A stretch of 64,000 nt of DNA from a virus. The stretch lies in IMG/VR virus record IMGVR_UViG_3300044959_000303, positions 43,129 to 107,128 of that record. One strand, written 5' to 3'. The position numbers and the translations under genes were made by a program. The notes beneath the pieces were generated by a model. The model saw only the letters and a list, made by a program, of their open reading frames with translations. It had not been told where the DNA came from and did no database searches. Of the stretch, positions 18,352 through 59,709 are shown piece after piece; the first letter of the stretch is position 1, and each line of letters begins with the position of its first letter.

Positions 18352-19629
18352 TCACTTTTTTACCCATAATTCGTATCCTGCATCGAAAATGACATCTTTG
18401 CAATTCCCGAACTTTCTTCTTTTTCTCGTTACATAATCCGTATACCATTTTTTCGGGGGAATTTCGGCAAGTTTCACAAAATCATTTTGCCGAAGAAATT
18501 CATCCCCGGGATGAAATCGGTTATCGATGAGAAGTTTTTCCGATTTCATGTTCAGGAAGAAAAAATTTCGATCCAGAAATCCTCGAATTGTTTTTTTCAT
18601 TCGTTTTTTCGAAAAATTCCATTCGTCTTCGAATATTTGCAGAAGAAGAATGTTTCGATTTTTTGCCTCGATATATTTTTTGTAATGGTACAATTCGTCT
18701 TTCTGATTACAGCAGGAATGCCAGTACAAACCATGAAATTCGATTCCGATACCATATTCCGGAATCAGTATGTCTATTTCGTGTTTTTCGAGAATGTTTC
18801 TTTTTCTCGATTCTGTTTTCAGATTTCTTTCGGAAAGAAATTTACGAATTTCCACTTCGTACGAAGAAAAATATTTTTTTCTGAGATTGTATTCGACGGC
18901 TCTTCTTTGAACGGAACATATGTTGACATTGAAATATTTCGAAATTTCTCTTTCATTTCCATGAAATTTTTCATATATTTCCGGAAAGAAATTTTCCCAA
19001 TCATCGAGGTTCGAAATGTGTTTTTTTGCCGTATTGTATACACCATATTTTTTCAGATTTGTCGATTTTATTCTGTTTTTTATTTTTTCACTTTTTGTCG
19101 GATTGTCCACTCCATATTTTTCCAGAATTTTTTTTCTTGCCCGATTTCTTATTTCCTCGCTTTTCATTGGATTGTCGATACCATATCGTTTCAACCATGT
19201 TTTTTTCTTTTTGTCATGAACATTTCTGTTTTGTGATGGATTTTCGACACCATATTTCTTCATCAATGTTTCTTTTATTCTGCTTTTTACAATATCCGAA
19301 GAAAAAGGATTGGCAACTCCGTATTTTTTCAAATTCGTGTTCTTTATTTTTTCTTTTATGATCTGTTTGCATTCTTCACAGTTGTTCACGTTTTCCGAAT
19401 GGTAACCTTTCGGCAAACTCAGGAATTTTCTTTTGTAACCATGCGAACAGTAGGGATTTTCTTCGAAAAGATAGTAGTGAATTTTTTCGACGAAATCGAC
19501 GTGTTCTGGAAATTTCCAGAAATCTTGAATATCTTTTCTGTACTCTTCCATATTTTTCATTTTTGTCACAAAAACATTGACTCGATATTTCGAATAAAAT
19601 TCATGTATTTCCCGATAATATTTTTTCAT
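18352..19629 (-). CDS. Free-standing homing endonuclease, EDxHD/Vsr-like nuclease with YGxxNP repeats
   Basis: 425 residues. After a WKFPEH/YCSHGYKRK N-terminal domain and a CEECK half zinc site come five ~22-residue repeats centred on KKYGVxNP, probably DNA-binding. The nuclease core is EIDILIPEYGIGIEFHGLYW then LLQIFEDEW, the PD-(D/E)XK-derived Vsr/EDxHD arrangement of I-Bth0305I-type enzymes. The C-terminus (WYTDYVTRK..., then VIFDAGYELW) matches the tail of three other proteins in this window but lacks their intervening domain. It is a tandem paralog of the next gene, with 3' ends almost identical in DNA. Lies between gp23 and gp19; probably a selfish element. Confidence 0.8.
   Translation of the reverse strand: MKKYYREIHEFYSKYRVNVFVTKMKNMEEYRKDIQDFWKFPEHVDFVEKIHYYLFEENPYCSHGYKRKFLSLPKGYHSENVNNCEECKQIIKEKIKNTNLKKYGVANPFSSDIVKSRIKETLMKKYGVENPSQNRNVHDKKKKTWLKRYGIDNPMKSEEIRNRARKKILEKYGVDNPTKSEKIKNRIKSTNLKKYGVYNTAKKHISNLDDWENFFPEIYEKFHGNEREISKYFNVNICSVQRRAVEYNLRKKYFSSYEVEIRKFLSERNLKTESRKRNILEKHEIDILIPEYGIGIEFHGLYWHSCCNQKDELYHYKKYIEAKNRNILLLQIFEDEWNFSKKRMKKTIRGFLDRNFFFLNMKSEKLLIDNRFHPGDEFLRQNDFVKLAEIPPKKWYTDYVTRKRRKFGNCKDVIFDAGYELWVKK
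18368..18538 (-). repeat. Near-identical 3' block of homing endonuclease (copy 1)
   Basis: About 171 bp encoding the C-terminus of the 425-residue endonuclease. Comparing by eye with 19724-19894 I see a single substitution (G versus C at 18391). The rest of the two genes has diverged much more, so this block looks recently duplicated or homogenised by gene conversion. Confidence 0.9.
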
Positions 19630-19660
19630 GTTTCTTCGATTTTTTTTCGATTCATTGTAA

Positions 19661-19698
19661 AAACAATTCGAAAAAACAACAATTTTTTCGAATTGTTT
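19661..19698 (-). terminator. Terminator between the two tandem homing endonucleases
   Basis: Arms of 16 bp (AAACAATTCGAAAAAA and its complement) around a six-base CAACAA loop, flanked by T-runs on both strands. It lies just downstream of the 454-residue endonuclease stop (19705) and upstream of the 425-residue gene start, so it would end the upstream minus-strand transcript. Confidence 0.7.
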
Positions 19699-19704
19699 TT
19701 TTTT

Positions 19705-21069
19705 TCAGAATTTTCGAATCCACAATTCGTATCCTGCATCGAAAATCACATCTTTGCAATTCCCGAACTTTCTTCTTTTTCTCGTTACATAATCCGTATA
19801 CCATTTTTTCGGGGGAATTTCGGCAAGTTTCACAAAATCATTTTGCCGAAGAAATTCATCCCCGGGATGAAATCGGTTATCGATGAGAAGTTTTTTCGAG
19901 GTTGTATCGATCGTATCGATGAAGAAGAAATTTCGATAGAGAAACGCTTTCAATATTTCCCGAATTTTTTCCCGAGAAAAATTCCATTCGTCTTCGAATA
20001 TTTGCAGAAGAACAATATTTCGATTTTTTGCTTCCATATATTTCCTGTAATGATAGAATTTGTCTTTTTTGTTGTTGAAAGAATGCCAGTACAATCCGTG
20101 AAACTCGATTCCGATACCATATTCCGGAATCAGTATGTCTATTTCGCTTCCATTCAGAATATTCCGGTTTCGAAATTCGAAACTTATTTCGTTTTCAGCG
20201 AGAAATTCACCAATTTCTTTTTCATAGGAAGAAAACGAAACAAATTTTTCCCTGAGACCACATTTCAAAGCTCTTTTGCGAATCGTGGAAATATCGACAG
20301 AGAAATATTTCGAAATTTCTCTTTCGTTACCATGAAATTTCTCGTAAATTTCCGAAAAAGAATTTTCCCAATCATCGAGATTCGAAATGTGTTTTTTCAC
20401 GTGATTGTCAGTTCCGTATTTCTGCAACCATGTTTTTTTTCTTTTTTCGAGAATTTCGATACAAGAAAAAGGATGTTCCGTTCCGTATTTTTTCAACCAT
20501 GTTTCTTTTCTTTTCTTTCGAAAGAATTCGAAACACGAAGGATTTTCGACTCCATATCTTTCTTTTGTCGTTTTCGTTTTCCTGTTTTTCACAGTGTCCA
20601 GAAGAGAAGGATTTTCGACTCCATATTTTTTTTGTAATGTTTCTCTTATTCTTTTTTTCACGATTTCCGAAGAAAATGGATTTTTACAACCGTATTTTCG
20701 AATATTCGTTTTTTCTTTTCTGTTTTTCACTTCCTGTGAAGAAGCCGGATTTTTGCAACCATATTTTTTCAAATTTGTCCTTTCTCTTTTTTCTTCGATG
20801 ATTTTCTTGCATTTTTCACATTTTTTGACCTGTTCCGACAGATAACCTTTTTTCAAACCATGAAAGGTTCTTTTGAAACCATGAAGACAATATGGATTTT
20901 CTTCGAACAGATAATAATGAACTTTTTCGACAAATTCGACATTTTCCGGAAATTTCCAGAAATTCTCGATTTCTTTTCTGAATTTTTCGTTGTTTTTTAC
21001 TTTTCTTACAAAAATTGCGGTTTTACAATTCGAATATATGTCATGTATTTCTTCATGATATTTTTTCAT
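19705..21069 (-). CDS. Free-standing homing endonuclease, EDxHD/Vsr-like, six YGxxNP repeats
   Basis: 454 residues, paralog of the 425-residue protein just downstream. Same architecture: WKFPENVEFVEK N-terminal domain, CEKCKK half zinc site, then six ~22-residue repeats (YGCKNP, YGCKNP, YGVENP, YGVENP, YGTEHP, YGTDNH) versus five in its neighbour. The nuclease core is SEIDILIPEYGIGIEF then LLQIFEDEW, with the tail VIFDAGYELW. The difference in repeat number may change DNA target specificity. Probably a mobile endonuclease that duplicated in situ. Confidence 0.8.
   Translation of the reverse strand: MKKYHEEIHDIYSNCKTAIFVRKVKNNEKFRKEIENFWKFPENVEFVEKVHYYLFEENPYCLHGFKRTFHGLKKGYLSEQVKKCEKCKKIIEEKRERTNLKKYGCKNPASSQEVKNRKEKTNIRKYGCKNPFSSEIVKKRIRETLQKKYGVENPSLLDTVKNRKTKTTKERYGVENPSCFEFFRKKRKETWLKKYGTEHPFSCIEILEKRKKTWLQKYGTDNHVKKHISNLDDWENSFSEIYEKFHGNEREISKYFSVDISTIRKRALKCGLREKFVSFSSYEKEIGEFLAENEISFEFRNRNILNGSEIDILIPEYGIGIEFHGLYWHSFNNKKDKFYHYRKYMEAKNRNIVLLQIFEDEWNFSREKIREILKAFLYRNFFFIDTIDTTSKKLLIDNRFHPGDEFLRQNDFVKLAEIPPKKWYTDYVTRKRRKFGNCKDVIFDAGYELWIRKF
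19724..19894 (-). repeat. Near-identical 3' block of homing endonuclease (copy 2)
   Basis: Counterpart of 18368-18538 with one visible mismatch over about 171 bp. Confidence 0.9.
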
Positions 21070-23201: not shown

Positions 23202-24581
23202 ATGTCGGACAACAGATTCGATCTTTCGTATTTCTACGACGGTCAGATAAGAAGAATGAACATTCAGTTCACTCGAATTTTTACAAATTTTCATTATTCG
23301 ATTGGAAAAAATCGAAACGGCGAGCCTTTGTTGAGAAGAGTTCCAGCGAGATATGCTTCGACAAATCGGCAGGTTGCTTATGTTCTGAGAAACAATTCGG
23401 AAAACGTGATGTTGTCCGTACCAATGTTCACCGTATATCTGACAGGTCTGACATATGACAGAAATCGAGTGCAGGATCCTCTCTTTTCGGAAAAAATTCG
23501 CTTCAACGAAAAAAAATTCGATTCGATTTCCGGTGAGTTCATTCAAGAACCGGGACAAAGATTCACTGTCGAAAGATACATGCCAGTTCCTTACACGATG
23601 AGATGGAACGTGGATTTGTGGGTGAGCAACGAAAGCCAGAAAGAACAGTTGGTGGAACAGATAATAGTTCTTTTCAATCCTTCCATACAATTGCAATTCA
23701 CCGAAAATCCTCTGGATTGGACAAGCCTGACAGAATTGACTCTGGAAGAAATCAACTGGAGTAACAATTCGATTCCGATAGGAACGGGTGGTGAAATAGA
23801 AATCATAACCTTTACGTTTTCCGCTCCGGTATGGATAAATCCGCCAGCAATAGTCGAAAGACAGAAAATAATAAAAACAATCATTACAAATGTTCTGGAA
23901 GCAGAAAAATACGAAGATTACGAAACAGAAGCAAGTTACGGTGTACAGTTCGACAAAATCGATCTGTTGAGCAGAACGGTGACAACTTTCAATGATCATA
24001 CAATCGTGATAAATCAGAATGTCGTAAAATTGACAGGTCCGGGAGGAATCGAAGTCAATGAGAATGGCAAACCGTTTTCTTGGAAAACAATCTTTTCGAA
24101 ATGCGGAGGTTTTCGTCCCGGAATTACACAACTTGTGATCAATCCGACCGACAATATCGAAGACGAAGAACATTTGATTTCTGGTATACTCGATTATGGT
24201 TCGAGTGAAAATGAACTTTTGTGGTTTCCAAATCCATCTACACTTCCATTGAATACCATTCGGGAAATAAATGCCATCATAGATCCTGTGAAAACTTTTC
24301 CCGAAAGAGGTCTTTCGATTCCAGTGATCGGAACCAGATATCTTTTATTGTCAGATATAGGAAATTCCATTGCCTGGGGAAACATTCAGGCAAAAAAACA
24401 TGAAATAATAGAATGGGACGGATCGAAATGGGTTGTCGCATTCAATGTAGAACTGGAGAAAGAAAAAATTCATTATGTCAAGAATCTCTATGACAACAAT
24501 CAATTGATATGGAATGGAAAGGAATGGAAATATCTTGTGAATGGATTGTATGAACAAGGTTTCTGGAGAATTATTCTGTAA
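23202..24581 (+). CDS. 15: Tail sheath stabiliser and completion protein, gp15-like
   Basis: 459 residues. The N-terminus FDLSYFYDGQIRRMNIQFTR and FTNFHYSIGKNRNG match the gp15 pattern (YFY..FRRY...LFSNI), with VPARYA and VPYTMRWNVDLWVSN and the FSAPVWINPP segment further on. The last ~170 residues (LLSDIGNSIAWGNIQ...WDGSKWVVA) look like an added beta-rich domain with a repeated WDG/WNGKEW motif. The protein caps the tail and connects it to the neck. Co-transcribed with the gp14-like gene. Confidence 0.75.
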   Translation: MSDNRFDLSYFYDGQIRRMNIQFTRIFTNFHYSIGKNRNGEPLLRRVPARYASTNRQVAYVLRNNSENVMLSVPMFTVYLTGLTYDRNRVQDPLFSEKIRFNEKKFDSISGEFIQEPGQRFTVERYMPVPYTMRWNVDLWVSNESQKEQLVEQIIVLFNPSIQLQFTENPLDWTSLTELTLEEINWSNNSIPIGTGGEIEIITFTFSAPVWINPPAIVERQKIIKTIITNVLEAEKYEDYETEASYGVQFDKIDLLSRTVTTFNDHTIVINQNVVKLTGPGGIEVNENGKPFSWKTIFSKCGGFRPGITQLVINPTDNIEDEEHLISGILDYGSSENELLWFPNPSTLPLNTIREINAIIDPVKTFPERGLSIPVIGTRYLLLSDIGNSIAWGNIQAKKHEIIEWDGSKWVVAFNVELEKEKIHYVKNLYDNNQLIWNGKEWKYLVNGLYEQGFWRIIL

Positions 24582-24589
24582 AAAAGAAA

Positions 24590-24615
24590 AAAGCTGCCCG
24601 ATACCGGGCAGCTTT
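24590..24615 (-). terminator. Terminator of the adhesin operon, possibly bidirectional
   Basis: Arms AAAGCTGCCCG (24590-24600) and CGGGCAGCTTT (24605-24615) with ATAC loop. On the minus strand it is followed by TTTCTTTTTT, so it primarily ends the 27.3-24.7 kb operon; it may also stop gp14-gp15 transcription from the other side. Confidence 0.85.
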
Positions 24616-24655
24616 GAAAAAAGTTGCAATTTTTTCGATCTGTTTTACGATCTTG

Positions 24656-25249
24656 TCATGGTCGCACAACAGTGTTGTTCAGATTGATGTTGTTGCCAAC
24701 GGCAGTAGCATTGACTTCGATGTTGCCACGAACGACGTTGTTACGAACTTCGGCAACGGCAGTGACATTGCTTCCGACAACAGCCTGACCAAGATTTCCA
24801 AGACGATTGTTGGTTCCATTCAGATTGACATTGTTACCGACAGATGTTGCTTCCACAGTAAGTGGACCATTGAGATTGCTGTTGGTAACCAAAGAAAATG
24901 ACTGAACGTTGCTGAACAACACCGCCTGATTTACCGCATCGTTATTCAGAACTCTGACATTTTCACCAGCAAGATTGTTTCCAACAGCAGTCGAACGAAC
25001 TTCCGGGTCGGAAGTATTCGAAACATTGGCAATGACAGCTGTTGCGGTTACATTGCTGTTTTTGACCAACTGACCATTGATATCGACATTCACATTCACT
25101 TCGATGTTGTCGATCTCGTTCAAATAACGACAATCGATACTGGTGCCCGGGTGTGTCAGATCACAACTCGTGGCATGTCCAGTACTTGCAAAAGTCAGAA
25201 GACCAATTGCAGTTGCGATGGAAGCAAGATAACGAATACTGACAGTCAT
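24656..25249 (-). CDS. Secreted repeat protein, HfaD/curlin-like adhesin candidate
   Basis: 197 residues with a clear Sec signal peptide (cleavage after GHA near residue 26). Two Cys follow (SCDL, DCRY). The mature part is N/V/A/T-rich with recurring ATAVGNN-type motifs (STAVGNN, ATSVGNN, ATAVGNN) spaced through alternating-hydrophobic beta-like sequence, the sort seen in amyloid-like surface adhesins. It is the last gene of the operon that encodes a CsgG/HfaB-type pore, which suggests it is the exported substrate. Composition is less AT-rich and less TTCGAA-biased than the phage core, a sign of acquisition. A structured 5' leader (25250-25398) and AGGAGG precede it. Homology to HfaD is my inference. 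Confidence 0.55.
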   Translation of the reverse strand: MTVSIRYLASIATAIGLLTFASTGHATSCDLTHPGTSIDCRYLNEIDNIEVNVNVDINGQLVKNSNVTATAVIANVSNTSDPEVRSTAVGNNLAGENVRVLNNDAVNQAVLFSNVQSFSLVTNSNLNGPLTVEATSVGNNVNLNGTNNRLGNLGQAVVGSNVTAVAEVRNNVVRGNIEVNATAVGNNINLNNTVVRP

Positions 25250-25398
25250 GTTTTCCTCCTTTGGTTGTCAGTTCTGATTCATATTGGTAAATTGCATCAA
25301 TTTACCAATACTTCCGGAGAATCCGGCATGACTTCCCGATAACCAGAAATCGGTAGGCCCAGTTTTTGAATTGGATTGGCAGCCAATATTCGAAAAAC
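25250..25398 (-). promoter_or_regulatory. Structured leader RNA upstream of the adhesin gene
   Basis: The 149-nt gap between the pore gene and the adhesin gene can form four hairpins on the minus strand: ATTGGC/GCCAAT (25374-25386), CCGAT/ATCGG (about 25335-25353), CCGGA/TCCGG (about 25313-25326), and a 13-bp TATTGGTAAATTG/CAATTTACCAATA stem (25282-25310) 22 nt before the AGGAGG. No T-run follows the last stem, so it is not an ordinary terminator. It may be an RNA processing or stability element, an attenuator or a riboswitch; I could not fit it to a known riboswitch core. Confidence 0.5.
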
Positions 25399-26286
25399 TC
25401 ATTGCATACCAAAAATTCGTACGCGATCACTTTCAATGTTTCTGTCCACATACCTTTTGTATCCTCCCGGATACAATTCGGTATTTTCGTATCTGTTCAG
25501 ATAAATGATATCATTGTTGTTGCAATTCAACTCTATTCCATAGATATCGGCCAGCAACAACGCCACCGAAGTTTCTATCACATCTCTCACACCAACATTC
25601 AGAGGTTCCTGAACCTTGAAACCACTGTTCACATCGATGAGTACATTTCCGAAAAAGGAGAAAATACCACTTTTCACCTCTTTTCCGGTAATTCTTTTTT
25701 TCAGGGAAATTGCCTTTACGATTTCAGTGGTTCGAGTGTTGACAACTCTGAAATCTGCTGCAATTTCCATTATATATTCTCTTGTTCCACCACCGATTCC
25801 GTTGATATAGAATTCAGAGCCACCAGAAATCAGATAATTGATTTCTGTAATACCACCTGCAATATAATAATCCGAACCCAGAACCTGTCCGGGAAAAATT
25901 TTTCTATATCCCGGTTCGTCATCACCAAGAACCTTGTTGTTCGAGAGATTGAGTTCGACATCGAATACGGAACGATCGATTCTTTCCACAACTCGAACAA
26001 CATTTGTTTTTGCCAAAGCAGTCGTAACCATATGTGAAATACCGGAAGAAACCTTTTTTCCATCTACCAGAGAAATTTTACCGCTGTAATCATCTACATT
26101 TCCGACGGAAATTGTAATCACACCTTTGTTGTTTTTCAAGGAATTCAGTGCTTTCGACTCGAAACATTTCAGATAATTCTGATATTCCGTGACGTTTTGT
26201 TCTACCGGATATCTGTTCAAGGTAGTAACAGAACATCCAGACAGTAAACTTGCCAGAAAAATCGCAGAAAAAAGTTTCTTTTTCAT
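25399..26286 (-). CDS. CsgG/HfaB-family outer-membrane secretion lipoprotein
   Basis: 295-residue lipoprotein with lipobox LLSGC (Cys18). The body matches CsgG-type pores, closest in pattern to holdfast-anchor protein HfaB: VITISVGNVDDYSG, a VSSGISHMVTTALAKT helix, VVRVVERIDRSVFDVE, then GSDYYIAGGITEINY and the beta-hairpin ADFRVVNTRTTEIV, and a C-terminal QEPLNVGVRDVIETSVALLL helix. Family members form nonameric outer-membrane channels that export curlin or holdfast-anchor subunits. Neighbours are small signal-peptide proteins, the expected substrates. No CsgE/F or HfaE equivalent recognised. Phage coding of such a pore is unusual. Confidence 0.85.
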   Translation of the reverse strand: MKKKLFSAIFLASLLSGCSVTTLNRYPVEQNVTEYQNYLKCFESKALNSLKNNKGVITISVGNVDDYSGKISLVDGKKVSSGISHMVTTALAKTNVVRVVERIDRSVFDVELNLSNNKVLGDDEPGYRKIFPGQVLGSDYYIAGGITEINYLISGGSEFYINGIGGGTREYIMEIAADFRVVNTRTTEIVKAISLKKRITGKEVKSGIFSFFGNVLIDVNSGFKVQEPLNVGVRDVIETSVALLLADIYGIELNCNNNDIIYLNRYENTELYPGGYKRYVDRNIESDRVRIFGMQ

Positions 26287-26299
26287 GATATGATTTCCG

Positions 26300-26665
26300 T
26301 CAATAATTGATGCTTCCGTTCAATTCTGTTTCAATATTACTGTCTTCTATTTCTTGTGTCAAGTTGAAATTTGGATTGTTCGAAATCGTTCCGTTTCTAT
26401 TGTGAAGAGAAATATTACTGTTTGTTATGTTTCCCACAGTACCGCCGTAAATTGAAATTCCACCATGAGGAATATTGCTACCATTCGAATTTTTTTCGAA
26501 CATGTTTCCTTTTTTCATTTCAATTGCCGTGGCTTGATTGACAAGATCTTCGAGTTTTCTTTCCCGAAAATTCCAAATGTCATTCTGTCCAAATTCTGCA
26601 TGTGCAGAATAGTTGAAAATAATGATCGAAAAACCTGAAAACAATGTAATCAGATGTTTTCTCAT
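26300..26665 (-). CDS. Secreted small protein, HfaA-like candidate
   Basis: 121 residues from the ATG at 26665, which has GGAGG at 10-nt spacing; an ATG 9 nt earlier is too close to that site. Sec signal peptide ending YSAHA then EFG. The mature protein has a charged helix (NFRERKLEDLVNQATAIEM) and then an N/S/G-rich region with strand-like repeats (GISIYGGTVGNI, SNISLHNRNGTIS). Ends 14 nt before the CsgG/HfaB-like start. Size, export signal and position suggest the HfaA-type anchor subunit or a curlin-like fibre subunit, but no diagnostic motif proves it. Confidence 0.5.
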   Translation of the reverse strand: MRKHLITLFSGFSIIIFNYSAHAEFGQNDIWNFRERKLEDLVNQATAIEMKKGNMFEKNSNGSNIPHGGISIYGGTVGNITNSNISLHNRNGTISNNPNFNLTQEIEDSNIETELNGSINY

Positions 26666-26688
26666 GATTTTCATTCCTCCATTGTTTT

Positions 26689-27324
26689 TTATCTTGGTCC
26701 TACACTGCTCATATCTGGTCCGATACTGTCAGTATTTGCTCCGATACTGCCATTGTCCGGTCCAATTCCATCATTCACACCATCTTTACCGTTTTTTCCA
26801 TCCTTACCATTTTCATTGTCTTTTCCATTGTTGTCATTTCTGGAATTGTTGGAATTGTCATTATACTCGTCAGTGAAACAAAGAGTTATCTTTTTTTCTT
26901 CATCTTTTTCACAGATCTGTTGATTCATGACAATTTCTTTTTCTTTTCTTCGAATTTCGATAAACACGAATTCTTTTTCAGAACTTTTTTTGGCAATTTC
27001 GATTCTTTTTCCACTTTTGTCAAAAGAAGATATATTTTCAGAAAAATAAGTGTTTTCCAATTTCTGTCTTTCCCTTTCTTTGTTCAAAATATGACTTTTG
27101 ATGAAATTCAAGGAATAGCATTCCTGATTTGGTTCGGGTTCATCATATTCTTTCGGCCAAAGATAACATTCATCTTTCGAATTTTCGATTTTGTGTTCTG
27201 TTTCCGAAAACATGAAAATTTTTTGATTGTCTAAAAATCTTTTGGATTCGAAATTGACATGATATACATAAGAGCAAGAAGTCGAAAGAAAAGAAGCAAG
27301 AACGACAAAAGAAAATTTTTTCAT
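26689..27324 (-). CDS. Lipoprotein with DEYND module and Gly-rich collagen-like tail
   Basis: 211 residues, lipobox LSTSC (Cys17). The middle is charged. Two Cys bracket the module CEKDEEKKITLCFTDEYND, which recurs as CDDES...ICYVDEYND in the other secreted protein of the island (27576-28223). After it comes a N/G/D-rich tail with G-x-y triplets (GKDGKNGKDG) and then SIGPD/SIGAN-type repeats. First gene of the operon, about 40 nt downstream of a sigma-70-like promoter. Function unknown; a surface-displayed stalk or adhesin is plausible. Confidence 0.55.
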   Translation of the reverse strand: MKKFSFVVLASFLSTSCSYVYHVNFESKRFLDNQKIFMFSETEHKIENSKDECYLWPKEYDEPEPNQECYSLNFIKSHILNKERERQKLENTYFSENISSFDKSGKRIEIAKKSSEKEFVFIEIRRKEKEIVMNQQICEKDEEKKITLCFTDEYNDNSNNSRNDNNGKDNENGKDGKNGKDGVNDGIGPDNGSIGANTDSIGPDMSSVGPR

Positions 27325-27363
27325 AAATTGTCTCCATTTTTTCGAAATTTCAAGTCAAATGAT

Positions 27364-27391
27364 ATTTTACATACGAAATCGAAATTGTCAA
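27364..27391 (-). promoter_or_regulatory. Sigma-70-like promoter of the secretion operon
   Basis: Minus strand TTGACA (27386-27391), 16-bp spacer, TAAAAT (27364-27369); 40 nt upstream of the lipoprotein start. Perfect -35, near-consensus -10, unlike the ATAAATA boxes of virion genes. Confidence 0.7.
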
Positions 27392-27462: not shown

Positions 27463-27490
27463 AATCCGGTTGAACAGGTTCAACCGGATT
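27463..27490 (-). terminator. Terminator of the repeat-protein gene
   Basis: Arms AATCCGGTTGAA (27463-27474) and TTCAACCGGATT (27479-27490), loop CAGG; on the minus strand a run of T follows directly (27452-27461). Confidence 0.9.
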
Positions 27491-27575: not shown

Positions 27576-28223
27576 TTAGCCATCCGAATCACCGACATCC
27601 GAATCACCGGCATCCGAATCACCGACATCCGAATCACCGACATCCGAATCACCGACATCCGAATCACCGACATCCGAATCACCGACATCCGAATCACCGG
27701 CACCCGGTTCATCAGCAACCGGTTCATCAGCAACCGGTTCATCAGCAACCGGTTCATCAGCACCCGGTTTATCAGCAACCGGTTCATCAGCACCCGGTTC
27801 ATCAGCAACCGGTTCATCAGCACCCGGTTTATCAGCAACCGGTTCATCAGCACCCGGTTCATCAGCAACCGGTTCATCAGCACCCGGTTCATCAGCAACC
27901 GGTTCATCAGCACCCGGTTCATCAGCACCCGGTTCATCAGCAACCGGTTCATCAGCACCCGGTTCATCAGCAACCGGTTCATCAGCACCCGGTTCATCAG
28001 CAACCGGATCGATTGGATCATCCACTCTCATGAAGTAGTTAGGTTGTTCACTATCATTATATTCATCGACATAACAAATGGATTTTCCTCTGTCACTTTC
28101 ATCATCGCAAACAAAAGTTTCCCGAACGCTGGAAACTCTTCTGTTTTCTGCGTTGACATCAGATGAATAAGAAAACACAGTCAAAAGAAGACCACTGACA
28201 ATAAACATTGGTACTTTTTTCAT
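27576..28223 (-). CDS. Secreted acidic repeat protein ([10 protein letters not shown] and GDSDV repeats)
   Basis: 215 residues from the ATG at 28223 (GGGGCAAGG upstream; a GTG one codon earlier is the alternative). Signal peptide ends near SDVNA. A two-Cys module ICYVDEYND matches that in the lipoprotein at 26689-27324. The rest is repeats: 20 five-residue units of the form (V/G)ADEP or VADKP, then eight GDSDx units, giving a strongly acidic Pro/Ala stalk. It has its own sigma-70-like promoter and terminator, so it is a self-contained transcription unit. Likely surface-exposed or released; function unknown. Confidence 0.65.
27579..28010. repeat. 15-bp tandem repeats coding the acidic stalk
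   Basis: Two adjoining arrays: about eight copies of a 15-mer of the type CATCCGAATCACCGA, then about twenty of the type GGTTCATCAGCAACC or GGTTCATCAGCACCC. All units are in frame with the minus-strand gene, so copy number can change without breaking the frame. Confidence 0.9.
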
Positions 28224-28274
28224 CACCTTGCCCCTTTCCTTTGGTCTTGTTCGAATTCATTGCTGAATTCGAGA

Positions 28275-29312
28275 TCATATTAAATCCAAAAAACAGACTT
28301 TGTCAACAAAATTTTTCGACCTTTTTTTCGAATTTCTTCGTATATCTTCGTTTACCATCATTCGAACAAGTTCGTCGAAAGAAACTTTTGGCGACCAACC
28401 AAGTTTTTCTTTGGCTTTCTTCGGATTGCCTCTCAGATATGGTACTTCCGCGGGACGCATATGAAGAGGATTGATTTTGACATAGGAAACATAATCTTCC
28501 CGGCGTTTTGTCAAACCGGAAAACAAAAAGGCTTTTTCCAGAAATTCACGTAAACTGTGAGACTCTCCGGTCGCAATAACGTAATCTTCCGGTGTCGATT
28601 GCTGTAACATCAACCACATTGCTTCGACAAAATCCCCCGCATATCCCCAATCTCGATAAACATCGAGATTTCCAAGTTCGATGAATTTCTGTTCTCCAGA
28701 AATTATTCTTGCAATTCCGTTTGTGATTTTTCTCGTGACAAATTCTTTTCCTCGAAGTGGAGATTCATGATTCATGAGTATTCCGGAACAGGCGAAAATA
28801 CCATAAGATTCCCTGTAGTTCACCGTTATCCAATGAGCTGCCAGCTTCGAAACTCCATATGGCGAACGGGGATGAAAAGGAGTATTTTCGTCTTGAGTCT
28901 TGTTACTGTTCAGAGAAATACCGAACATTTCCGATGTGGATGCCTGATAGAATCTGCTTTTCGGACTATTGGAAATTATCGCTTCCAGAATGTTCAATGC
29001 TCCCATGAAATTCGTTTCCAAAGTATACTTTGGATTTTCCCACGATATTCCGACAAAGGATTGTGCAGCCAGATTGTAAACTTCATTTGGTTTGATCTGT
29101 TTCATGATTTTCATGATGGAAATTTCGTCGGTAACATCACCAACAAGATATTCGATTTCGTTTGTTATACCGAAATAATCCAGATTTTCGAAATTCGGGT
29201 TACTTTTTCTTCTTACCAGACCGTAAATTCTGTAATCTTTTTCCAGAAGAAATTTCGAAAGATAAGCGCCATCCTGACCAAGAATTCCGGTAATGAAAGC
29301 TGTTCTTTTCAC
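28275..29312 (-). CDS. gmd: GDP-mannose 4,6-dehydratase
   Basis: 345-residue short-chain dehydratase that converts GDP-mannose to GDP-4-keto-6-deoxymannose, the precursor of GDP-fucose, rhamnose and perosamine for surface polysaccharides. N-terminal NADP site ITGILGQDG (residues 7-15); VYNLAAQSFVGISW; STSEMFG with the catalytic Ser/Thr and Glu; SPYGVSKLAAHW with the Tyr-Lys pair; NHESPLRG; and the C-terminal LHMRPAEVPYLRGN block. All Gmd landmarks are intact and length is normal. The start codon appears to be GTG after GGGGG. A sigma-70-like promoter lies 28 nt upstream. Phage Gmd enzymes are known in large myoviruses; here it may alter host O-antigen or capsule. Confidence 0.95.
   Translation of the reverse strand: MKRTAFITGILGQDGAYLSKFLLEKDYRIYGLVRRKSNPNFENLDYFGITNEIEYLVGDVTDEISIMKIMKQIKPNEVYNLAAQSFVGISWENPKYTLETNFMGALNILEAIISNSPKSRFYQASTSEMFGISLNSNKTQDENTPFHPRSPYGVSKLAAHWITVNYRESYGIFACSGILMNHESPLRGKEFVTRKITNGIARIISGEQKFIELGNLDVYRDWGYAGDFVEAMWLMLQQSTPEDYVIATGESHSLREFLEKAFLFSGLTKRREDYVSYVKINPLHMRPAEVPYLRGNPKKAKEKLGWSPKVSFDELVRMMVNEDIRRNSKKRSKNFVDKVCFLDLI
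28277..28306 (-). promoter_or_regulatory. Sigma-70-like promoter of the repeat-protein gene
   Basis: Minus strand TTGACA (28301-28306) followed at 16-18 bp by TTTAAT/TAATAT (28277-28284), overlapping the end of gmd. A small hairpin (TCGAATTCA/TGAATTCGA, about 28250-28271) lies in the leader. Confidence 0.6.
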
Positions 29313-29920: not shown

Positions 29921-32900
29921 TCATGTCGATGGTAATGAAACGATGTTCTGCAGATTTTCTCCGGTATTTGTAATTCTTATCGGTATGTAGATGAATTCTA
30001 TGGCTTTTGCCGGTTGAATTGCCACATCGATCCAGAGTTCGTTTCGATCGATTCTTTCCGGAGTATTGTTCGACTCGTCGACAACTACCAGAAAATCGAA
30101 CAACGCTCTCAGACTTACGAGATTCGACAGAAATCTGTCGAAAGCCGATTTGACCTGATCTCTGGTGGTTTTGTCATTGAATTCGAAAAGAAATGGTTTT
30201 GCCAATATTTCGAAATTGTATCTCAGGAAGTTCACCAATCTTGCAACATTGACCCGACTCATTGCAGAATCTACGGCATTCAATGTTTTCTGTCCGAATA
30301 CAACTATGCCTCTTCCGGGAATGAAGGCAATCGGATTGATTCTGTTCTGATAGAGAACATCTCTTTGTCCCTGATTCAGTGTGACTGGCAGAAATTCGTT
30401 TTCATTCGTAATATAACCTACAGTAGATACGTTCGATACCAATCCCCGATTGTAACCTGCGGGAGCAAACCAAGGAAATGCTACGAGATCATTGTAAGCA
30501 ATCGTTCGAAGAACAATTCCGCTCGGTGGTATGATGACTTCGTTACCATCGAGATTCGTGGTCAATCCCCATGGATAGTACAAACCGATGTTCGGACTCG
30601 ATATTGTCAGACCTTCTTCGCCTGTTCTGAAGGAATTGTTTGCATTTGTCGCCCATTCTCTTATCGAAGTTCCGTCCGGTTTCAATCTGCAGGGAGTATC
30701 ACCGACAATGAAGGCAATTTCTTTTTTGTCAATATTCAGATTTACAAGTTCTTCGAGCACTTCGGGATATCCCGGACATGCAATCAGATTGAAGTAGACG
30801 CTTTCGCTTCTTATATCCTGATTGCTGCTTATCATGCTTTGCAGGCTGGTGACAATGACTTCACGCTGAGCTTTTCTTCCCATGAACGGTGAACCATCCG
30901 GTTTCGATCCCGAAATCGTGACCCATCTTCCCTGATTTCTTTTCGTGATTGTATTTGTCGGAAACGACACCGATCCGACAGTGTACTGTACACCCGGGGA
31001 AACTTCCTTGTCGACAAATTCTGCAAAGTGATTCGGTCTCCATTCTTTTACATTGAATGTCGATGCACGGGTATTGAACAGAAGAATTCCTGCCGGATAG
31101 ACTCTTGGATCCGGTGCATCCGGATCGACAAAATCGCTGAGAACAAGATCTGCCGAATTCGTGCTTCCCTCTCTGGTTCCATCATTCGTGTATCTTGCAT
31201 CTGCGAAAACTATACCAAGAGGAGTTGTCTGATCGGTATTGTCGATTGGTTCCCATGTTCGTGTCGCAGAACGATATCTGTATATGCGAGGATAATTTTC
31301 GATATCGGAACTGTCTATCCACAAATCGTTTTCCACCAGAGGAGTTCCGTCGCTTTGTGTCAGTGGTTGTGAGCCTCTTATGATTACGCCATTCGGATCG
31401 GTTGTCGGGAAGTAATTTCTGTATCCCCACCATTTGCTTCCGTCGCTCACCATTATGTCGGCTTTCAGATCATCGTTGAACCAAAGTCTTTTTTCTTCAG
31501 CTTCCGATCTTGGTTCGCTTTCACTGGCTATATAAGAAAGTTCTTCGAAGTTGCTGAATGTCTGACCATCGGTAAATCCGAGGCTCTGTAATGGATCGTC
31601 ACTGTTTGTTGTCGAATAATCGATCAATGTTACGGGATCCGTATATGTGAACGTCAGAGTAAATCCTGCCGTGTTCACGACTCTCAGATAACCACCGGCA
31701 ACATCCGCGACAACATTCGAAAAACCGGCATTGTTTATGGCAATTGCCAGATCTTCCAAAGATGTGCTCGGAATCGTTATCACGTTCACTTCCTGATTTC
31801 CAAGTGTATTTCCGGCAACAATTACAAAATTGTCTCCGGGAACGAGTGCCGGAGTCGATACGCCGGGTTGTTCTGTCGACAATGCGACAACTTCGGTAAA
31901 TCCATTGTATTTTCTGATCATATGTGATGCAATTGGTCGAGTCGAAGTACCATAGAGATTGTACTGTACATACAGTGTTCCCGGTGCGATTCCCGTTCCG
32001 AGTTTGTGCAGAGCCTTGTCATCGTCCTCATGGAAAGGAGCATCTTTTATCAACCATGTATCATTCTCTCTGAATTTGACAACATAATTCGCTCCAGCAT
32101 TCGGTTTGGTAATTTTTATCCATATGTCTCCGGACACGGAATTTGCAGGAATCTGATAATGTGGTGCATAGAACAACCTGTTTCCTCTCGAACTCGAAAT
32201 CTGCAATGAAGTCAATACGTTGCCCGTATTACCCGGACCATTGGTCAGAAACAGATCTTCGCCTTTGAAATTCGATATCACCAATCGATTCGTTGTCGTT
32301 ACTTTTGCACCAAATGTATTCGACAAACCGGCAGAATTGATTGCGGTATTGATTTTGTTGACAACGGTTGTCAAGGTTGCAATATCTGCGGCCGCAAATG
32401 TGACATTCACGGTGTTCGTGCCGTCGCTTATGACCAGCGTATCGTTTGCTATAATTGGATTCAGAAGATAATTCGTGGTCGTGACACCGAAAACAGCAGT
32501 CGGTGTTGCAGCTTTCCAGATTTCCGAACCGATCAGAAACCAGAAATCTGTCGCATCCGGATCGTATTCTCCGAATTCGTTCGTCGGTCTTATTTTTTCG
32601 AAATACAGATTGTCCGTGTTCGCTGCAACGACTCCCGTATCTCCGACAACGCCCTTGATCAGCGGCAACTGAGTAATTTGTGTGGTATTCGAAAAACCTA
32701 AAGAACCTGCCAAGGTTCCACCAACAACGATATCTTCGCTTGCGGTATTTCTCAGAACGAGCCAGCTTCTTCCTCGATATCGCAAAATCATGGCCTTTAT
32801 GTTCGGTATCGATGCGGAATTGATCTTGTCTCTTATCTGTATCAGGGTATCCGTTACAGCTATATTCACGGTCGTTCCGTTGACAATCAATGTTCCGGCA

Positions 32901-33472
32901 AATCCGGGAACGGTTGTGTTCGAAGCAAATCCGACATTACCGACAATGACGGTTTCCGTTTCGGACAGTGAAGAAGCCACCAGAGGCTCGACTGCATTCC
33001 ATGCCGTCACCAGATTCGAAGAACCGTTCGACCGAAAAATTCCCCATACCGTGCTCGATGTATCGAACCAATAGGTTCCGTTCGGAACATCTCTTGTCGG
33101 TTCGAAACTGGAAGGAACCAACTGATCCAGAGGCACAGAAGCTCTCAATATCCAGCAATTGCTTGCGATTCCCAAGAACTGATAAGCAGCCAACAGGCCA
33201 TATTCATTCAACTCGTTTGCCGGATCGGAATGAAAAATCGGAACACCGAAAGTATTGATCAGTTCATTCTGGCTTGTTACGAGCCAAAGATTGTCGATAT
33301 TGTTCACGGTAGTTCCGGGAGCAATCAACGAAGCATTGGTCGAAGAATTGACCGGAGCATTTTTGTTCTGTGCAGTTGCTATTATTATCAAAGGTAAAGT
33401 GGTGGAACCGCCATTTGTGGCGAGGCTCTGATCTGTTACTGTTACTTGAATACCGGGAGAAACTAGTGCCAT
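29921..33472 (-). CDS. 18: Tail sheath protein gp18 (enlarged)
   Basis: 1183 residues. The N-terminus MALVSPGIQVTVTDQSL and ending IFHSDPANELNEYGLLAAYQ, and the C-terminal third (MSRVNVARLVNFLRYNFE, DKTTRDQVKSAFDRFL, AKAIEFIYIPIRI) are typical of contractile sheath subunits. The middle is greatly expanded (T4 gp18 has 659 residues) with repeated beta-rich units rich in T/V/N/G, e.g. two YRSRSWLV/ITLGN-like segments and repeated ELWI/DIWI motifs, probably surface-exposed decorations. CATAAATA box 31 nt upstream, hairpin terminator downstream: a monocistronic late unit. Composition is more balanced than in neighbours, as for gp23. Confidence 0.93.
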   Translation of the reverse strand: MALVSPGIQVTVTDQSLATNGGSTTLPLIIIATAQNKNAPVNSSTNASLIAPGTTVNNIDNLWLVTSQNELINTFGVPIFHSDPANELNEYGLLAAYQFLGIASNCWILRASVPLDQLVPSSFEPTRDVPNGTYWFDTSSTVWGIFRSNGSSNLVTAWNAVEPLVASSLSETETVIVGNVGFASNTTVPGFAGTLIVNGTTVNIAVTDTLIQIRDKINSASIPNIKAMILRYRGRSWLVLRNTASEDIVVGGTLAGSLGFSNTTQITQLPLIKGVVGDTGVVAANTDNLYFEKIRPTNEFGEYDPDATDFWFLIGSEIWKAATPTAVFGVTTTNYLLNPIIANDTLVISDGTNTVNVTFAAADIATLTTVVNKINTAINSAGLSNTFGAKVTTTNRLVISNFKGEDLFLTNGPGNTGNVLTSLQISSSRGNRLFYAPHYQIPANSVSGDIWIKITKPNAGANYVVKFRENDTWLIKDAPFHEDDDKALHKLGTGIAPGTLYVQYNLYGTSTRPIASHMIRKYNGFTEVVALSTEQPGVSTPALVPGDNFVIVAGNTLGNQEVNVITIPSTSLEDLAIAINNAGFSNVVADVAGGYLRVVNTAGFTLTFTYTDPVTLIDYSTTNSDDPLQSLGFTDGQTFSNFEELSYIASESEPRSEAEEKRLWFNDDLKADIMVSDGSKWWGYRNYFPTTDPNGVIIRGSQPLTQSDGTPLVENDLWIDSSDIENYPRIYRYRSATRTWEPIDNTDQTTPLGIVFADARYTNDGTREGSTNSADLVLSDFVDPDAPDPRVYPAGILLFNTRASTFNVKEWRPNHFAEFVDKEVSPGVQYTVGSVSFPTNTITKRNQGRWVTISGSKPDGSPFMGRKAQREVIVTSLQSMISSNQDIRSESVYFNLIACPGYPEVLEELVNLNIDKKEIAFIVGDTPCRLKPDGTSIREWATNANNSFRTGEEGLTISSPNIGLYYPWGLTTNLDGNEVIIPPSGIVLRTIAYNDLVAFPWFAPAGYNRGLVSNVSTVGYITNENEFLPVTLNQGQRDVLYQNRINPIAFIPGRGIVVFGQKTLNAVDSAMSRVNVARLVNFLRYNFEILAKPFLFEFNDKTTRDQVKSAFDRFLSNLVSLRALFDFLVVVDESNNTPERIDRNELWIDVAIQPAKAIEFIYIPIRITNTGENLQNIVSLPST

Positions 33473-35257: not shown

Positions 35258-36196
35258 ATGAAAATATTCGAAATCGCGGGTCGACGATCTTCTTTTGGAA
35301 AAAAATACGAAGAATTCATCGAAGAAATGGCGAAAAACACGAATTCGGAAATTGTGAAATTTCTTTTCGAAAATCCACTTTACAGAGCTTTGACACCGGA
35401 TGAAAACAAATGGACGAAGAATTATGGAATTCTGAGTATAAGAAAAGATCGTAAACCATTGAGTTTCTCACCGGCCATACAGAAAATTATCGATAATTAT
35501 CTGAAGAATATGGGTTTTCGGGCTTTGAGATCGAACAGCGTGTTCGTAACGAGACAGAAATCCATATCGGAGTTCTACAAATCGAATTCCAGAATTCTTG
35601 CAGTTGTTTTTCCTCCGAAAAAATTTTTTTTCACATGGAATCGAATTTCCGAAGATCTTTATGCAACTTTTTTCTACGAGGATTTCATCTTTTTCGATTT
35701 CGATGAATTGAGAAAATCGAAAAAAGAAACATTGAAAAAAATTCTGGAAATATTCACGAAAATCATTCCGGATGAATTCTATTCGAAAGAAAAAGAAGAC
35801 ATTCTGAAACTGGTCGAAAATCGCAATTGGTCGAGAGCCTTGAATCTTTTCGAAAAAATCATGAAGAAAATTTTCGATGAAAAGAGAAAAAACAAGGAAT
35901 TCATTCAAAAATTTTTTCATCTCGTGAACAATTACAAAGATTTCGATTTTGCTTCGGAAGAAGAAATGACGAGAATTTTCACCGTCGATACGAACAGTCG
36001 TCTGGCAAAAGAATTCAGAAACGAAAATTTTCAGGAAGCGGTTCGATCCCGAAAAGAAATCATGATTACAGATGATGTATATTTCTACATCGAAGAAAGT
36101 TTCTTCGTCGAACACAAAAACAGATTGTGGAAAGATCTGCAAAAGAAATATTCGTCTCTTGAAGAAAAAGAATCGAAAAAAACGAACGAAGAATGA
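35258..36196 (+). CDS. ADP-ribosyltransferase-like paralog 1
   Basis: 312 residues; one of four paralogs (others at 36209, 40249 and 55246). Shared landmarks in order: EEMAKNTNSEIVKF, then PLYRA (Arg43), RKDRKPLSFSP, FRALRSNSVFVT (near residues 88-98), a PPKKFFFTWN strand, and near the C-terminus EAVRSRKEIMITDD (Glu267) before a final F/Y-rich stretch. The spaced Arg, Ser-x-F-x-T and Glu elements resemble the R-S-E active site of mono-ADP-ribosyltransferases such as phage Alt/Mod. Here the usual SxFVTG is VFVTRQ and SGNE is SRKE, so this copy may be altered. Function is inferred. Confidence 0.5.
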   Translation: MKIFEIAGRRSSFGKKYEEFIEEMAKNTNSEIVKFLFENPLYRALTPDENKWTKNYGILSIRKDRKPLSFSPAIQKIIDNYLKNMGFRALRSNSVFVTRQKSISEFYKSNSRILAVVFPPKKFFFTWNRISEDLYATFFYEDFIFFDFDELRKSKKETLKKILEIFTKIIPDEFYSKEKEDILKLVENRNWSRALNLFEKIMKKIFDEKRKNKEFIQKFFHLVNNYKDFDFASEEEMTRIFTVDTNSRLAKEFRNENFQEAVRSRKEIMITDDVYFYIEESFFVEHKNRLWKDLQKKYSSLEEKESKKTNEE

Positions 36197-36208
36197 TTTC
36201 GAATCGTT

Positions 36209-37222
36209 TTACGAAATATTGTAGAATTCTTTCAATTTTTCGGTGATGAATTTTCTTTTCGAAAAAAAGAACTGTTTGTCGAAATAATAGAAAATATCAT
36301 TCGTGATCATGATTTCGTTACCGGATTTGACAGCTTCTTCGAAATTTCGATCGGTAAAGGCATTGGTAACTTCGTTGTTCGGAATTTTCAGAATTTTTTC
36401 CAATGAAGATTCCGTAAAATGTTCTTCCATGATTTTCAGAAAATCACCGTAAATTTCGTCCGATACGAGAGAACTCGTGCTGAAAATCGTATCGTGAAGT
36501 TCTTTCATGATTTTTTCGAGAATTCGGGTTCTTTTTTTCGAATTTTTTTCGAGAAGAAATTTCGACAACAAATCATGTATTTTTTCCTGTTCGTCTTCCT
36601 CGTTGTCGTGTTCGTCGTATTCGTCGTATTCGTCGTATTCATCTCCAGTCAGATTTTTCATATTGTACTTTTCGATGAAATCTTCCACGACTTTGTAAGT
36701 TTCCTTCGGATACTTTGTCATTTCTTCGTATGAAATGCTCAAAACCTTTTCGATGAGATCGGACATTACAAGTTTTGGAAAGTAGAAATCTTTTATGTAA
36801 GGATTCCACGAAAAGTAAAATTTTCTGGAAGGAAAAATCACCAGAGATTTTCTCTCTTTACCGGAAGTTTTACTGAAAAATATGGTGATGAATTTTTCGT
36901 CACCGGTCGCGAAAATGCTGTTGAGTCTTCCTGCCCGAATTCCTTTGGAACTCAGAAATTCGTCGAGAATTTTCGAATAATACAATGGAGTATCGACAGG
37001 AGTGCGATTTTTTCTTATGGGTTTGATTCCGAAAAAATTTCCGAATTTGCCTTCACTGTAGGAATCTGCTCTGTACAAAGGATGTTCCAGAAGAAACATC
37101 GTAATTTTGGGATTTGTATTTTTTGCCATTTCTCGAAGAAAATTTTCGAACTCTTTTCGAAAATTCTCCGAATTGTCAATGTTTTTCTCTTTTTTCGAAG
37201 AAACAATTTCATTGATTTTCAT
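36209..37222 (-). CDS. ADP-ribosyltransferase-like paralog 2
   Basis: 337 residues. REMAKNTNPKITMFLLEHPLYR-like start (Arg within PLYRA), RKNRTPVDTPLYYSKILDEF, GRLNSIFATGDEKF (the S-x-F-x-T-G element), FPSRKFYFSWN, an acidic DEYDEYDEYDEHDNEEDE insert in the middle, and EAVKSGNEIMITND near the C-terminus (candidate catalytic Glu). It faces paralog 1 tail to tail with 12 nt between the stops. ATAAATAG box and GGAG precede the start. A degraded copy of part of this gene lies just upstream at about 37481-37640. Confidence 0.5.
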   Translation of the reverse strand: MKINEIVSSKKEKNIDNSENFRKEFENFLREMAKNTNPKITMFLLEHPLYRADSYSEGKFGNFFGIKPIRKNRTPVDTPLYYSKILDEFLSSKGIRAGRLNSIFATGDEKFITIFFSKTSGKERKSLVIFPSRKFYFSWNPYIKDFYFPKLVMSDLIEKVLSISYEEMTKYPKETYKVVEDFIEKYNMKNLTGDEYDEYDEYDEHDNEEDEQEKIHDLLSKFLLEKNSKKRTRILEKIMKELHDTIFSTSSLVSDEIYGDFLKIMEEHFTESSLEKILKIPNNEVTNAFTDRNFEEAVKSGNEIMITNDIFYYFDKQFFFSKRKFITEKLKEFYNIS

Positions 37223-37241
37223 GATAAAATCTCCTTTTTTT

Positions 37242-37249
37242 CTATTTAT
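37242..37249 (-). promoter_or_regulatory. Late promoter box before ART-like paralog 2
   Basis: Minus-strand ATAAATAG, 20 nt upstream of the ATG, just before a GGAG ribosome-binding site. Confidence 0.45.
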
Positions 37250-37378
37250 CTGTCGAAATTTTTTTTTTCGAAAAGCGTGACAAACATGCGATTGTTTTCG
37301 CTTCGTTTTCCGGTTTTCGATTTTTTCATGTTCGAAAAAAAATCATTCGATATTTTCGAATTTCGCAAAATACGATCG

Positions 37379-37480
37379 TTTCGAATGTCCGCAATCGTAA
37401 ATTTTCGAAAATCCGAGTTCGCCAGTTATCATTTTTTCCGACCAGCTTTCGATATTGTCGATCAGATGCCCGTATTTTCG
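37379..37480 (-). pseudogene. Relic: 3' fragment of a homing endonuclease gene
   Basis: 102 bp that match 38994-39095 (3' part of the 357-residue endonuclease gene) with two mismatches by eye. The copied part encodes the SWSEKMITGELGFSKIYDCG region. No open frame of useful length continues through it, so it is a fragment left by duplication or recombination. Upstream sequence is only loosely similar. Confidence 0.85.
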
Positions 37481-37640
37481 TCGAATACGGAAGAACTCGT
37501 GCCGAAAATTTCATTGTGAATTTCTTTCATGATTTTTTTTTTCGAAAATTCGAGTTTTTTTCTTTTCGAATCTTTTTTCGAAAAAAAGTTCGGCGACAAT
37601 TCATACGTTTTTTCATGTTCGTTCTTCTTTTCATCATATT
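37481..37640 (-). pseudogene. Relic: degraded internal fragment of an ART-like gene
   Basis: Resembles about 36457-36620 inside ART-like paralog 2: shared AGAACTCGTGCCGAAAAT-like and TTCTTTCATGATTTTTT stretches followed by similar TTCGAA-rich sequence and TTTTTTC(C/A)TGTTCGT, but with indels and many substitutions. It abuts the endonuclease relic at 37379-37480. The rest of 37641-38030 is TTCGAA-rich with no gene I can support. Confidence 0.6.
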
Positions 37641-38037
37641 CGTTTCGAATCGAATTTTTTCAATTCATGATCTGAAAAATTCCGAAAAAATATGAAAATT
37701 TTTCGGAATTTTTTCGAATTGTCCATCCAGACAGACAATTCGAATTCGAAACGGAGATCATTTCTTGTGTGATACTAGTATAATTATTGATGAATTTTCT
37801 TTCGACTGTCGAAACTTTTCAGAGTAATTTTTTCGAATCGAGAAAAATTGTTCCCAATTTTTTTCGAATTTTTTCGATTCGACACGAATATTCGAAAAAC
37901 ATCGAAAGAAAAATCTGTTTCGAATTTTTTCTGTCGAAAAAATTATCTTCGTTTTTTTTTTTCGGTATTCGAGGTGAAATATTTTCATGAAACGGACTTT
38001 CCACTGGACCATACACGATTACTGATTGTAAAACAGG

Positions 38038-38045
38038 CATAAATA
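38038..38045 (+). promoter_or_regulatory. Late promoter box before the small beta-propeller gene
   Basis: CATAAATA, 22 nt before the ATG at 38067. Confidence 0.5.
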
Positions 38046-38066
38046 CGAACAAAAAGGAGAAATTCG

Positions 38067-38468
38067 ATGCCAACGATATCATTTCAGATAAGAAAAGGTG
38101 AATATGTCATACCAGTTGCGGGTGTTTCGTCCGGCGATGAACTGAATGTATTCGATTTGAAAAATCTTGTGAAAAATGATGCCGTTGTACGTTCTTTTTC
38201 CGTGAGTTCTCAGGATTCAGCACCACGAGACATATTTTTCAAACCGGATGGTACGAAAATGTATGTGGTTGGATCTACCAATGATAGAGTATATTCCTAT
38301 ACGTTGAGTACTCCATGGAACATCGGTACGGTAACCTATGACAATGTGAGCTTTTTTGTAGGTTCTCAGGATGGTACTCCTACAGGTATATTCTTTCGAC
38401 CGGACGGTACGAAAATGTACATGGTTGGAGCTGGCACTGATAGAGTATATTCGTATACTTTGATCTGA
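38067..38468 (+). CDS. Small beta-propeller-repeat protein, probably fibre-associated
   Basis: 133 residues. After a short N-terminal MPTISFQIRKGEY segment there are two ~45-residue repeats of the type FFKPDGTKMYVVGS..DRVYSYTLSTPWNI, the phage/bacterial beta-propeller repeat also seen about eleven times in the 571-residue protein at 62100-63815. Two blades cannot close a propeller alone, so it may oligomerise or be a truncated copy; the second repeat stops right after VYSYTLI. AAGGAG precedes the ATG. Related degraded sequence follows at about 38636-38735. Confidence 0.6.
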   Translation: MPTISFQIRKGEYVIPVAGVSSGDELNVFDLKNLVKNDAVVRSFSVSSQDSAPRDIFFKPDGTKMYVVGSTNDRVYSYTLSTPWNIGTVTYDNVSFFVGSQDGTPTGIFFRPDGTKMYMVGAGTDRVYSYTLI

Positions 38469-38635
38469 TTACAGAAAATACGGTATTTTCTGTCAGAAAA
38501 TTTTTTCTTATGGCAAGTATCATTTCGAAACAATCTGAACGGAAATTTCTTTCGAATTTCTTTTTCGACAGAATTGTCCCGGATGTCTGACAGATATACG
38601 GGACATGATGTTTTCACAAGAGAAATGTCATATTC

Positions 38636-38735
38636 ACCATACATGATTGCAAAACAGGCACAATTACGGACAAAAAAATACTTCGATATCAATATCATTT
38701 CGAACAGGAACAGATGAACATGTCACGGTCTGAAA
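38636..38735 (+). pseudogene. Relic of the 5' end of the small beta-propeller gene
   Basis: Aligns by eye with about 38010-38115: ACCATACATGATTGCAAAAC, then GGACAAAAAAATACTTCG, ATATCATTTCGAACAGG and ATGAACATGTCA, against the leader and first codons of the 133-residue gene, with small indels. The start codon is lost. Shows tandem duplication and decay. Confidence 0.65.
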
Positions 38736-38776
38736 AAATTCTGTAAAAATACGAAAATTTTTCTTTGCTTTTTCGA

Positions 38777-38807
38777 AAGCAATTTCGGGTTGAACCCGAA
38801 ATTGCTT
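38777..38807. terminator. Inverted repeat, probable terminator
   Basis: Arms AAGCAATTTCGGGTT and AACCCGAAATTGCTT (15 bp, one central base). It lies between the beta-propeller gene/relic and the convergent endonuclease gene (stop at 38970), where a bidirectional terminator would be expected. T content after the stem is modest on both strands. Nothing else is supported in 38808-38969. Confidence 0.55.
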
Positions 38808-38969
38808 CATTTATTCGAATGTTGCGGACAGAATGTCCAGTACCGCTCGAATATGCTTTCATGATCATTTCAATCGAGAATTTTCTTTTTTCGGCATGTC
38901 ACGAGTTCGAAAATTCCAATTGCCAACAGATATACGATCTTTTCCATGAAAAAAATCAACCGTCATTTT

Positions 38970-40043: not shown

Positions 40044-40248
40044 ACTATGGTTTTTTTTCTCGAATTTCAATATTTTCGACGGAACGAGATTTCGAAATCA
40101 TTATGTACCGAAAAGCAACAGATACGAACAAAAAAATCGAAAAAAAAGTGAAAAGAATTGTCGATTTCACGATTCGAAAAAAATCGATCGAAAAATATTT
40201 CGCGACGTGTCGAAAATTTTCTTCGAAACAAATGAAAAAAATCAGAGT

Positions 40249-59590: not shown

Positions 59591-59709
59591 TGTCGTGAAA
59601 AAGTAAAGAAGATTTTTTTCGAAATTTTTTTTTTCGACGATATTATTTACTTTTCGAAAATTCGAAGTTCGAAAAAAAAAAAAAAAGAAGAATTCGTGAC
59701 AAAAAAAAA

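Follow-up and report, generated by a model that had tools for sequence, protein, structure and literature searches.

What use does a phage have for a CsgG-family outer-membrane pore? The presence of such genes in phages has been puzzling: with no evident substrate, a pore would point to lysis or leakage. We analyzed a stretch of 64,000 nucleotides (the window; bases 43129 to 107128 of the 107,128-base IMG/VR record IMGVR_UViG_3300044959_000303, a fragment of a phage genome) in which a first-pass annotation had placed a complete CsgG/HfaB-type secretion cassette.

A four-gene operon between the sheath stabilizer and sheath genes

The source phage is a jumbo myophage of the T4-like kind, with Agrobacterium phage Atu_ph07 among its relatives. 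The window encodes a T4-type portal, major head protein, baseplate protein, tail sheath, and sheath stabilizer, and the closest relatives of the sheath belong to the jumbo myophages Sinorhizobium Phosso and Agrobacterium Atu_ph07 (45 to 46%). The cassette is a minus-strand operon encoding, in order, a 211-aa putative lipoprotein, a 121-aa protein (A), a 295-aa protein (B), and a 197-aa protein (D) (Table 1). Besides the operon, the stretch between the stabilizer and sheath genes holds genes for a 216-aa repeat protein, a GDP-mannose 4,6-dehydratase, and a small virion-type protein. No CsgG relative was found in the stretches surrounding the sheath gene in Atu_ph07, Phosso, and IMG/VR relatives; the operon therefore looks like an insertion in the window lineage.

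The first-pass claim of a single operon with its own promoter and terminator was borne out. The best promoter of the cassette, by sequence motif sigma70-like rather than T4-late-like, is the window's only perfect match to TTGACA-N16-TANAAT; promoter-like matches as a class are no commoner in the window than chance. Every reading frame of the cassette is uninterrupted, and a clear ribosome site precedes most of its genes. The B-D intergenic stretch contains a 14-bp perfect inverted repeat (ATATTGGTAAATTG/CAATTTACCAATAT; 25283 to 25312; z = -3.45) without a T-run, possibly an operator, processing, or stabilizing element. Rfam gave no match within the operon. GC content is 45% in D, 34% in A, 32% in the lipoprotein gene, and 38.5% in B, compared with 37% for the phage. 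The three small proteins accompanying B had been described as exported, and all of them, as judged from sequence, begin with hydrophobic, signal-like leaders.

Table 1. Features of the cassette and its flanks (window positions)
Feature	Position	Strand	Remarks
Tail-sheath stabilizer	23202-24581	+	One flank of the operon
Intrinsic terminator of the operon	24590-24615	-	Hairpin and T-run
D, 197-aa secreted protein (predicted), HfaD-like	24656-25249	-	Three ~47-aa repeats
B-D intergenic stretch, 149 nt	25250-25398	-	14-bp perfect hairpin; GGAGG ribosome site before D
B, HfaB-type CsgG-family outer-membrane pore lipoprotein (predicted)	25399-26286	-	Lipid Cys18
A, 121-aa secreted protein (predicted)	26300-26665	-	GGAGGA ribosome site
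211-aa exported putative lipoprotein	26689-27324	-	Imperfect lipobox LSTSC; D/N/G/K-rich tail
Promoter, sigma70-like TTGACA-16-TAAAAT	27364-27391	-	11/12 match; 40 bp upstream of the operon's first ATG
Terminator of the upstream 216-aa gene	27463-27490	-	Hairpin and T-run; separates that gene from the operon
Tail sheath	29921-33472	-	Other flank of the operon

No relatives of the 211-aa lipoprotein were found among phages. The upstream 216-aa exported protein (27576 to 28226, minus strand) consists mostly of ~28 tandem 15-bp units encoding pentapeptides such as GDSDV, and the length of this array could vary between phages. Weak Pfam matches of the 216-aa protein to Extensin and ASFV J13L were taken as low-complexity chance. 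Both proteins contain the motif C..DE....K...C[YF].DEYND (E = 2e-4), which suggests that they may be paralogous surface proteins. The GDP-mannose 4,6-dehydratase gene (28275 to 29312, minus strand) adjoins the cassette and could act in modifying the cell surface or the virion with sugars.

A predicted HfaB-type pore protein

B has, by sequence alone, a canonical lipobox (LLSGC) whose cysteine is nearly invariant in the alignment, and it matches the Pfam CsgG family (PF03783; 8.1e-19; 68.2 bits against a curated cut-off of 20.8). The first-pass annotation had called this gene a lipobox protein of the CsgG/HfaB pattern, and both the call and its coordinates were right. CsgG was the sole match in a PDB profile search with B (4e-17). 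An AlphaFold2 model was built from 26 sequences (pLDDT 70.8), and CsgG chains made up all top 25 Foldseek matches to it in the PDB (best 2.5e-15), placing B in the CsgG fold; TM-scores were moderate (0.36 to 0.49 by query, 0.45 to 0.70 by target).

Within the family, B resembles HfaB more than CsgG: the NCBIfam HfaB model (NF037935) scored 206.7 bits, compared to 48.8 bits for E. coli-type CsgG. The likeness to HfaB stops short of membership, however, since 206.7 bits falls below the equivalog cut-off of 300 and above-cut-off Caulobacterales HfaB sequences score 378 to 452, indicating that B is HfaB-type yet outside the equivalog. In a 115-sequence tree, the E. coli and Melnitz CsgG proteins separated from all HfaB-like sequences. 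Window B grouped as sister to holdfast-type HfaB of Alphaproteobacteria (97/89), and the phages of Caulobacter and Brevundimonas branched immediately outside this pair; the branch of window B is long (2.02), which makes this placement tentative. The aligned stretch corresponding to the CsgG constriction loop is shortened in B and in all other HfaB-like sequences. Identity to bacterial HfaB-like proteins is only 33 to 40%, and B as a single-sequence query found nothing in IMG/VR, where alignments were needed.

Two conserved partners in a fixed gene order

Genes for A, B, and D occur in one order in the window, in the Caulobacter phages CcrColossus (gp241 to gp243) and CcrPW (gp250 to gp252), in Brevundimonas vB_BpoS phages (Kabachok, Marchewka, and others; five by B match, of which two were inspected), in a 499,572-base IMG/VR contig, and in a Rhodospirillales chromosome, where the locus adjoins cytochrome bc1 genes. 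The proteins of the named phages are homologous to those of the window, B being 37 to 45% identical over the matched part. These phages are siphophages of the Dolichocephalovirinae and have a longer A and D than the window does, and the 211-aa lipoprotein is an extra of the window relative to CcrColossus-type cassettes. In GenBank, CcrColossus gp242 and CcrPW gp251 are annotated as CsgG-like and hfaB, and the partner genes only as lipoprotein or hypothetical. Neither the window sheath nor the CcrColossus tail-tube protein was found in the 499,572-base contig. That the contractile-tailed window phage and long-tailed siphophages both carry A-B-D points to phage-phage transfer or repeated capture.

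The N-terminal domain of A, G[EQ]N..W.F ... IE.KKG..F[ED], is shared with phage and bacterial proteins whose genes lie upstream of an HfaB-like gene. In these phage and chromosomal loci, a secreted protein with a GEN..WQF...IE.KKGGYYD-type domain directly precedes the pore gene; the window version reads FGQNDIWNF...AIEMKKGNMFEK. The start of A at 26665 was chosen for its GGAGGA ribosome site over a longer ATG at 26674. The mean local score of A against the family was 34.1 (shuffles, 19.7 ± 2.3; 0 of 3000 as good). A profile of relatives that excluded window A and drew on the 500-kb contig, both phage groups, and the locus in Rhodospirillales scored it at 22.1 bits (maximum of 14.4 in 9999 shuffles). 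A wider profile of 51 mostly bacterial sequences was weaker, with 86 of 9998 shuffles as good, and a short N-terminal HMM failed to register A (0.1 bits), a result that probably reflects a small deletion in the window protein. In tblastn searches, A, D, and the 211-aa protein, each used alone, found no phage relatives.

D contains three repeats of ~47 aa (score of 96 against a shuffle maximum of 64), each closed by a copy of a [TS][AS]VGNN-type motif. Its AF2 model is poor (pLDDT 53); a similar strand pattern appears in it three times. Against a profile of relatives built without it, window D scored 17.4 bits (maximum of 9.0 in 5000 shuffles). The HfaD model did not match window D significantly by itself (E = 0.038) but matched the D proteins of CcrColossus (1.5e-5) and the Brevundimonas phages (1.3e-7), to which window D is homologous. 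A weak Pfam match of D to FAD_oxidored was taken as low-complexity chance.

These results refine two first-pass statements. Both A and D had been described as beta-repeat proteins; this holds for the repeats of D, whereas A is N-rich and its repeat is not significant (141 of 1000 shuffles as good). HfaA and HfaD had been cited as the subunits that HfaB exports; A and D are indeed conserved partners elsewhere, but A is of a different family from canonical HfaA, whose model (NF037934) matches in Caulobacter and nowhere in the contig, and the link of D to HfaD runs through its phage relatives.

Chromosomal loci in Comamonadaceae, sphingomonads, Roseobacteraceae, and Halomonas likewise encode the GEN..WQF domain directly upstream of an HfaB-like gene; they differ from the window in that the third gene is often a 1000- to 1500-aa A.GN-repeat protein. 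Five such loci from several proteobacterial families (L011, L016, L037, L039, and L064), with A, an HfaB-like gene, and often the giant repeat protein, likely represent a sister system of the holdfast anchor. In a Caulobacter-related genome (G003, L094), canonical hfaAB lie at C3, and a second locus at C6 holds HfaA and two adjacent HfaB genes.

A proposed role at the surface of the infected cell

The holdfast anchor secures to the cell an adhesive that ranks among the strongest known in biology. In the HfaA-HfaB-HfaD anchor of Caulobacterales and their relatives, as in the window, a CsgG-family pore is preceded by a small secreted protein and followed by one with A.GN repeats; the anchor differs in that window A is not HfaA and window B is under the HfaB cut-off. 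No holdfast synthesis genes were seen in an unsystematic look at the immediate neighborhood of the cassette. Caulobacter HfaA and HfaD need HfaB to reach the surface, and HfaA multimers are SDS-resistant (PMC6707917); hfa genes are also named for Brevundimonas abyssalis (PMC3798453). By analogy with this dependence on HfaB, B would export A and D. We consider it probable that the operon is a phage-borne, self-contained export cassette, in which B exports A and D and these form a layer or short fiber on the infected cell. Both proteins would reach the periplasm via Sec, would then pass through the B pore, and would assemble at the cell surface in the manner of HfaA and HfaD with HfaB. The surface of the infected cell would probably be altered as a result, by masking of receptors against competing phages, by adhesion, or by replacing or disturbing the host anchor complex.

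Phage CsgG systems were already known. Published pelagiphage curli modules include CsgF, CsgG, CsgA/B, and FecR (PMC7029224, PMC9599517), and the CsgGF of Methylophilales phage Melnitz has been interpreted as a lysis timer (PMC9004378). Like the window, these type VIII secretion modules combine a phage-borne CsgG-family pore with exported repeat proteins; what sets them apart is the presence of CsgF, curlin repeats, FecR, and, in many cases, adenylate cyclase (PMC9599517). In the window contig, which is a fragment, searches for CsgF and for curlin repeats came back negative, also near the pore gene, while the Melnitz positive control matched both. New here is an HfaB-type variant with its own conserved partners in unrelated phage lineages; a literature search, with most subscription papers outside its coverage, yielded no paper describing hfa-type genes in phages.

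If the proposal made for phage CsgGF (PMC9004378) applied to the window, B would be a permeability or lysis pore opening the outer membrane late in infection, and A and D would be plugs, gates, or by-products. The position of the operon within the structural gene module is in line with this reading. Nevertheless, we regard a lysis pore as unlikely, given the missing CsgF, a best promoter that is apparently sigma70-like and not T4-late-like, and the retention of A and D alongside B in distant phages and one chromosome; such constancy favors surface building rather than a pore for mere leakage or lysis. It is similarly improbable that the phage proteins mix with a host anchor complex of the HfaABD type and block it or take its place, so that infected cells come free or lose a polar receptor. 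The known relatives do come from phages that infect holdfast producers (Caulobacter and Brevundimonas), and window B groups beside alphaproteobacterial holdfast HfaB; against this, identity to bacterial HfaB-like proteins is low, the tree placement is unsure, and A is not HfaA. That the operon is captured bacterial DNA without a present role for the phage, as the uneven GC content of D, A, and the lipoprotein gene and the missing CsgG relatives around other sheath genes might suggest, is very unlikely in view of the intact frames, the operon's own signals, the retention of A-B-D in distant phages, and a composition of B near that of the phage.

The export of A and D to the cell surface thus remains our preferred reading. 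It ties these phage genes to the holdfast anchor and offers a likely role for the uncharacterized A and D genes of these phages. More tentatively, an HfaB-type system of three dedicated parts may be kept by several unrelated giant-phage lineages, remodeling the surface of the infected cell either as a coat against other phages or as a takeover of the holdfast anchor at the pole of stalked and budding Alphaproteobacteria. Since the putative pore occurs with the same two partners, predicted to be exported, in contractile- and non-contractile-tailed phages, a surface-building role can be tested directly with CcrColossus in Caulobacter, a tractable host.

Elsewhere in the window, a borderline Rfam match to the HPnc0260 antisense RNA (59602 to 59748, plus strand) overlaps an opposite-strand tRNA-Arg gene and is probably due to chance. 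Two homing-endonuclease genes adjoin the major head protein gene (18352 to 21069), and three paralogues of the uncharacterized PHROG 11975 are clustered at 35258 to 41187.
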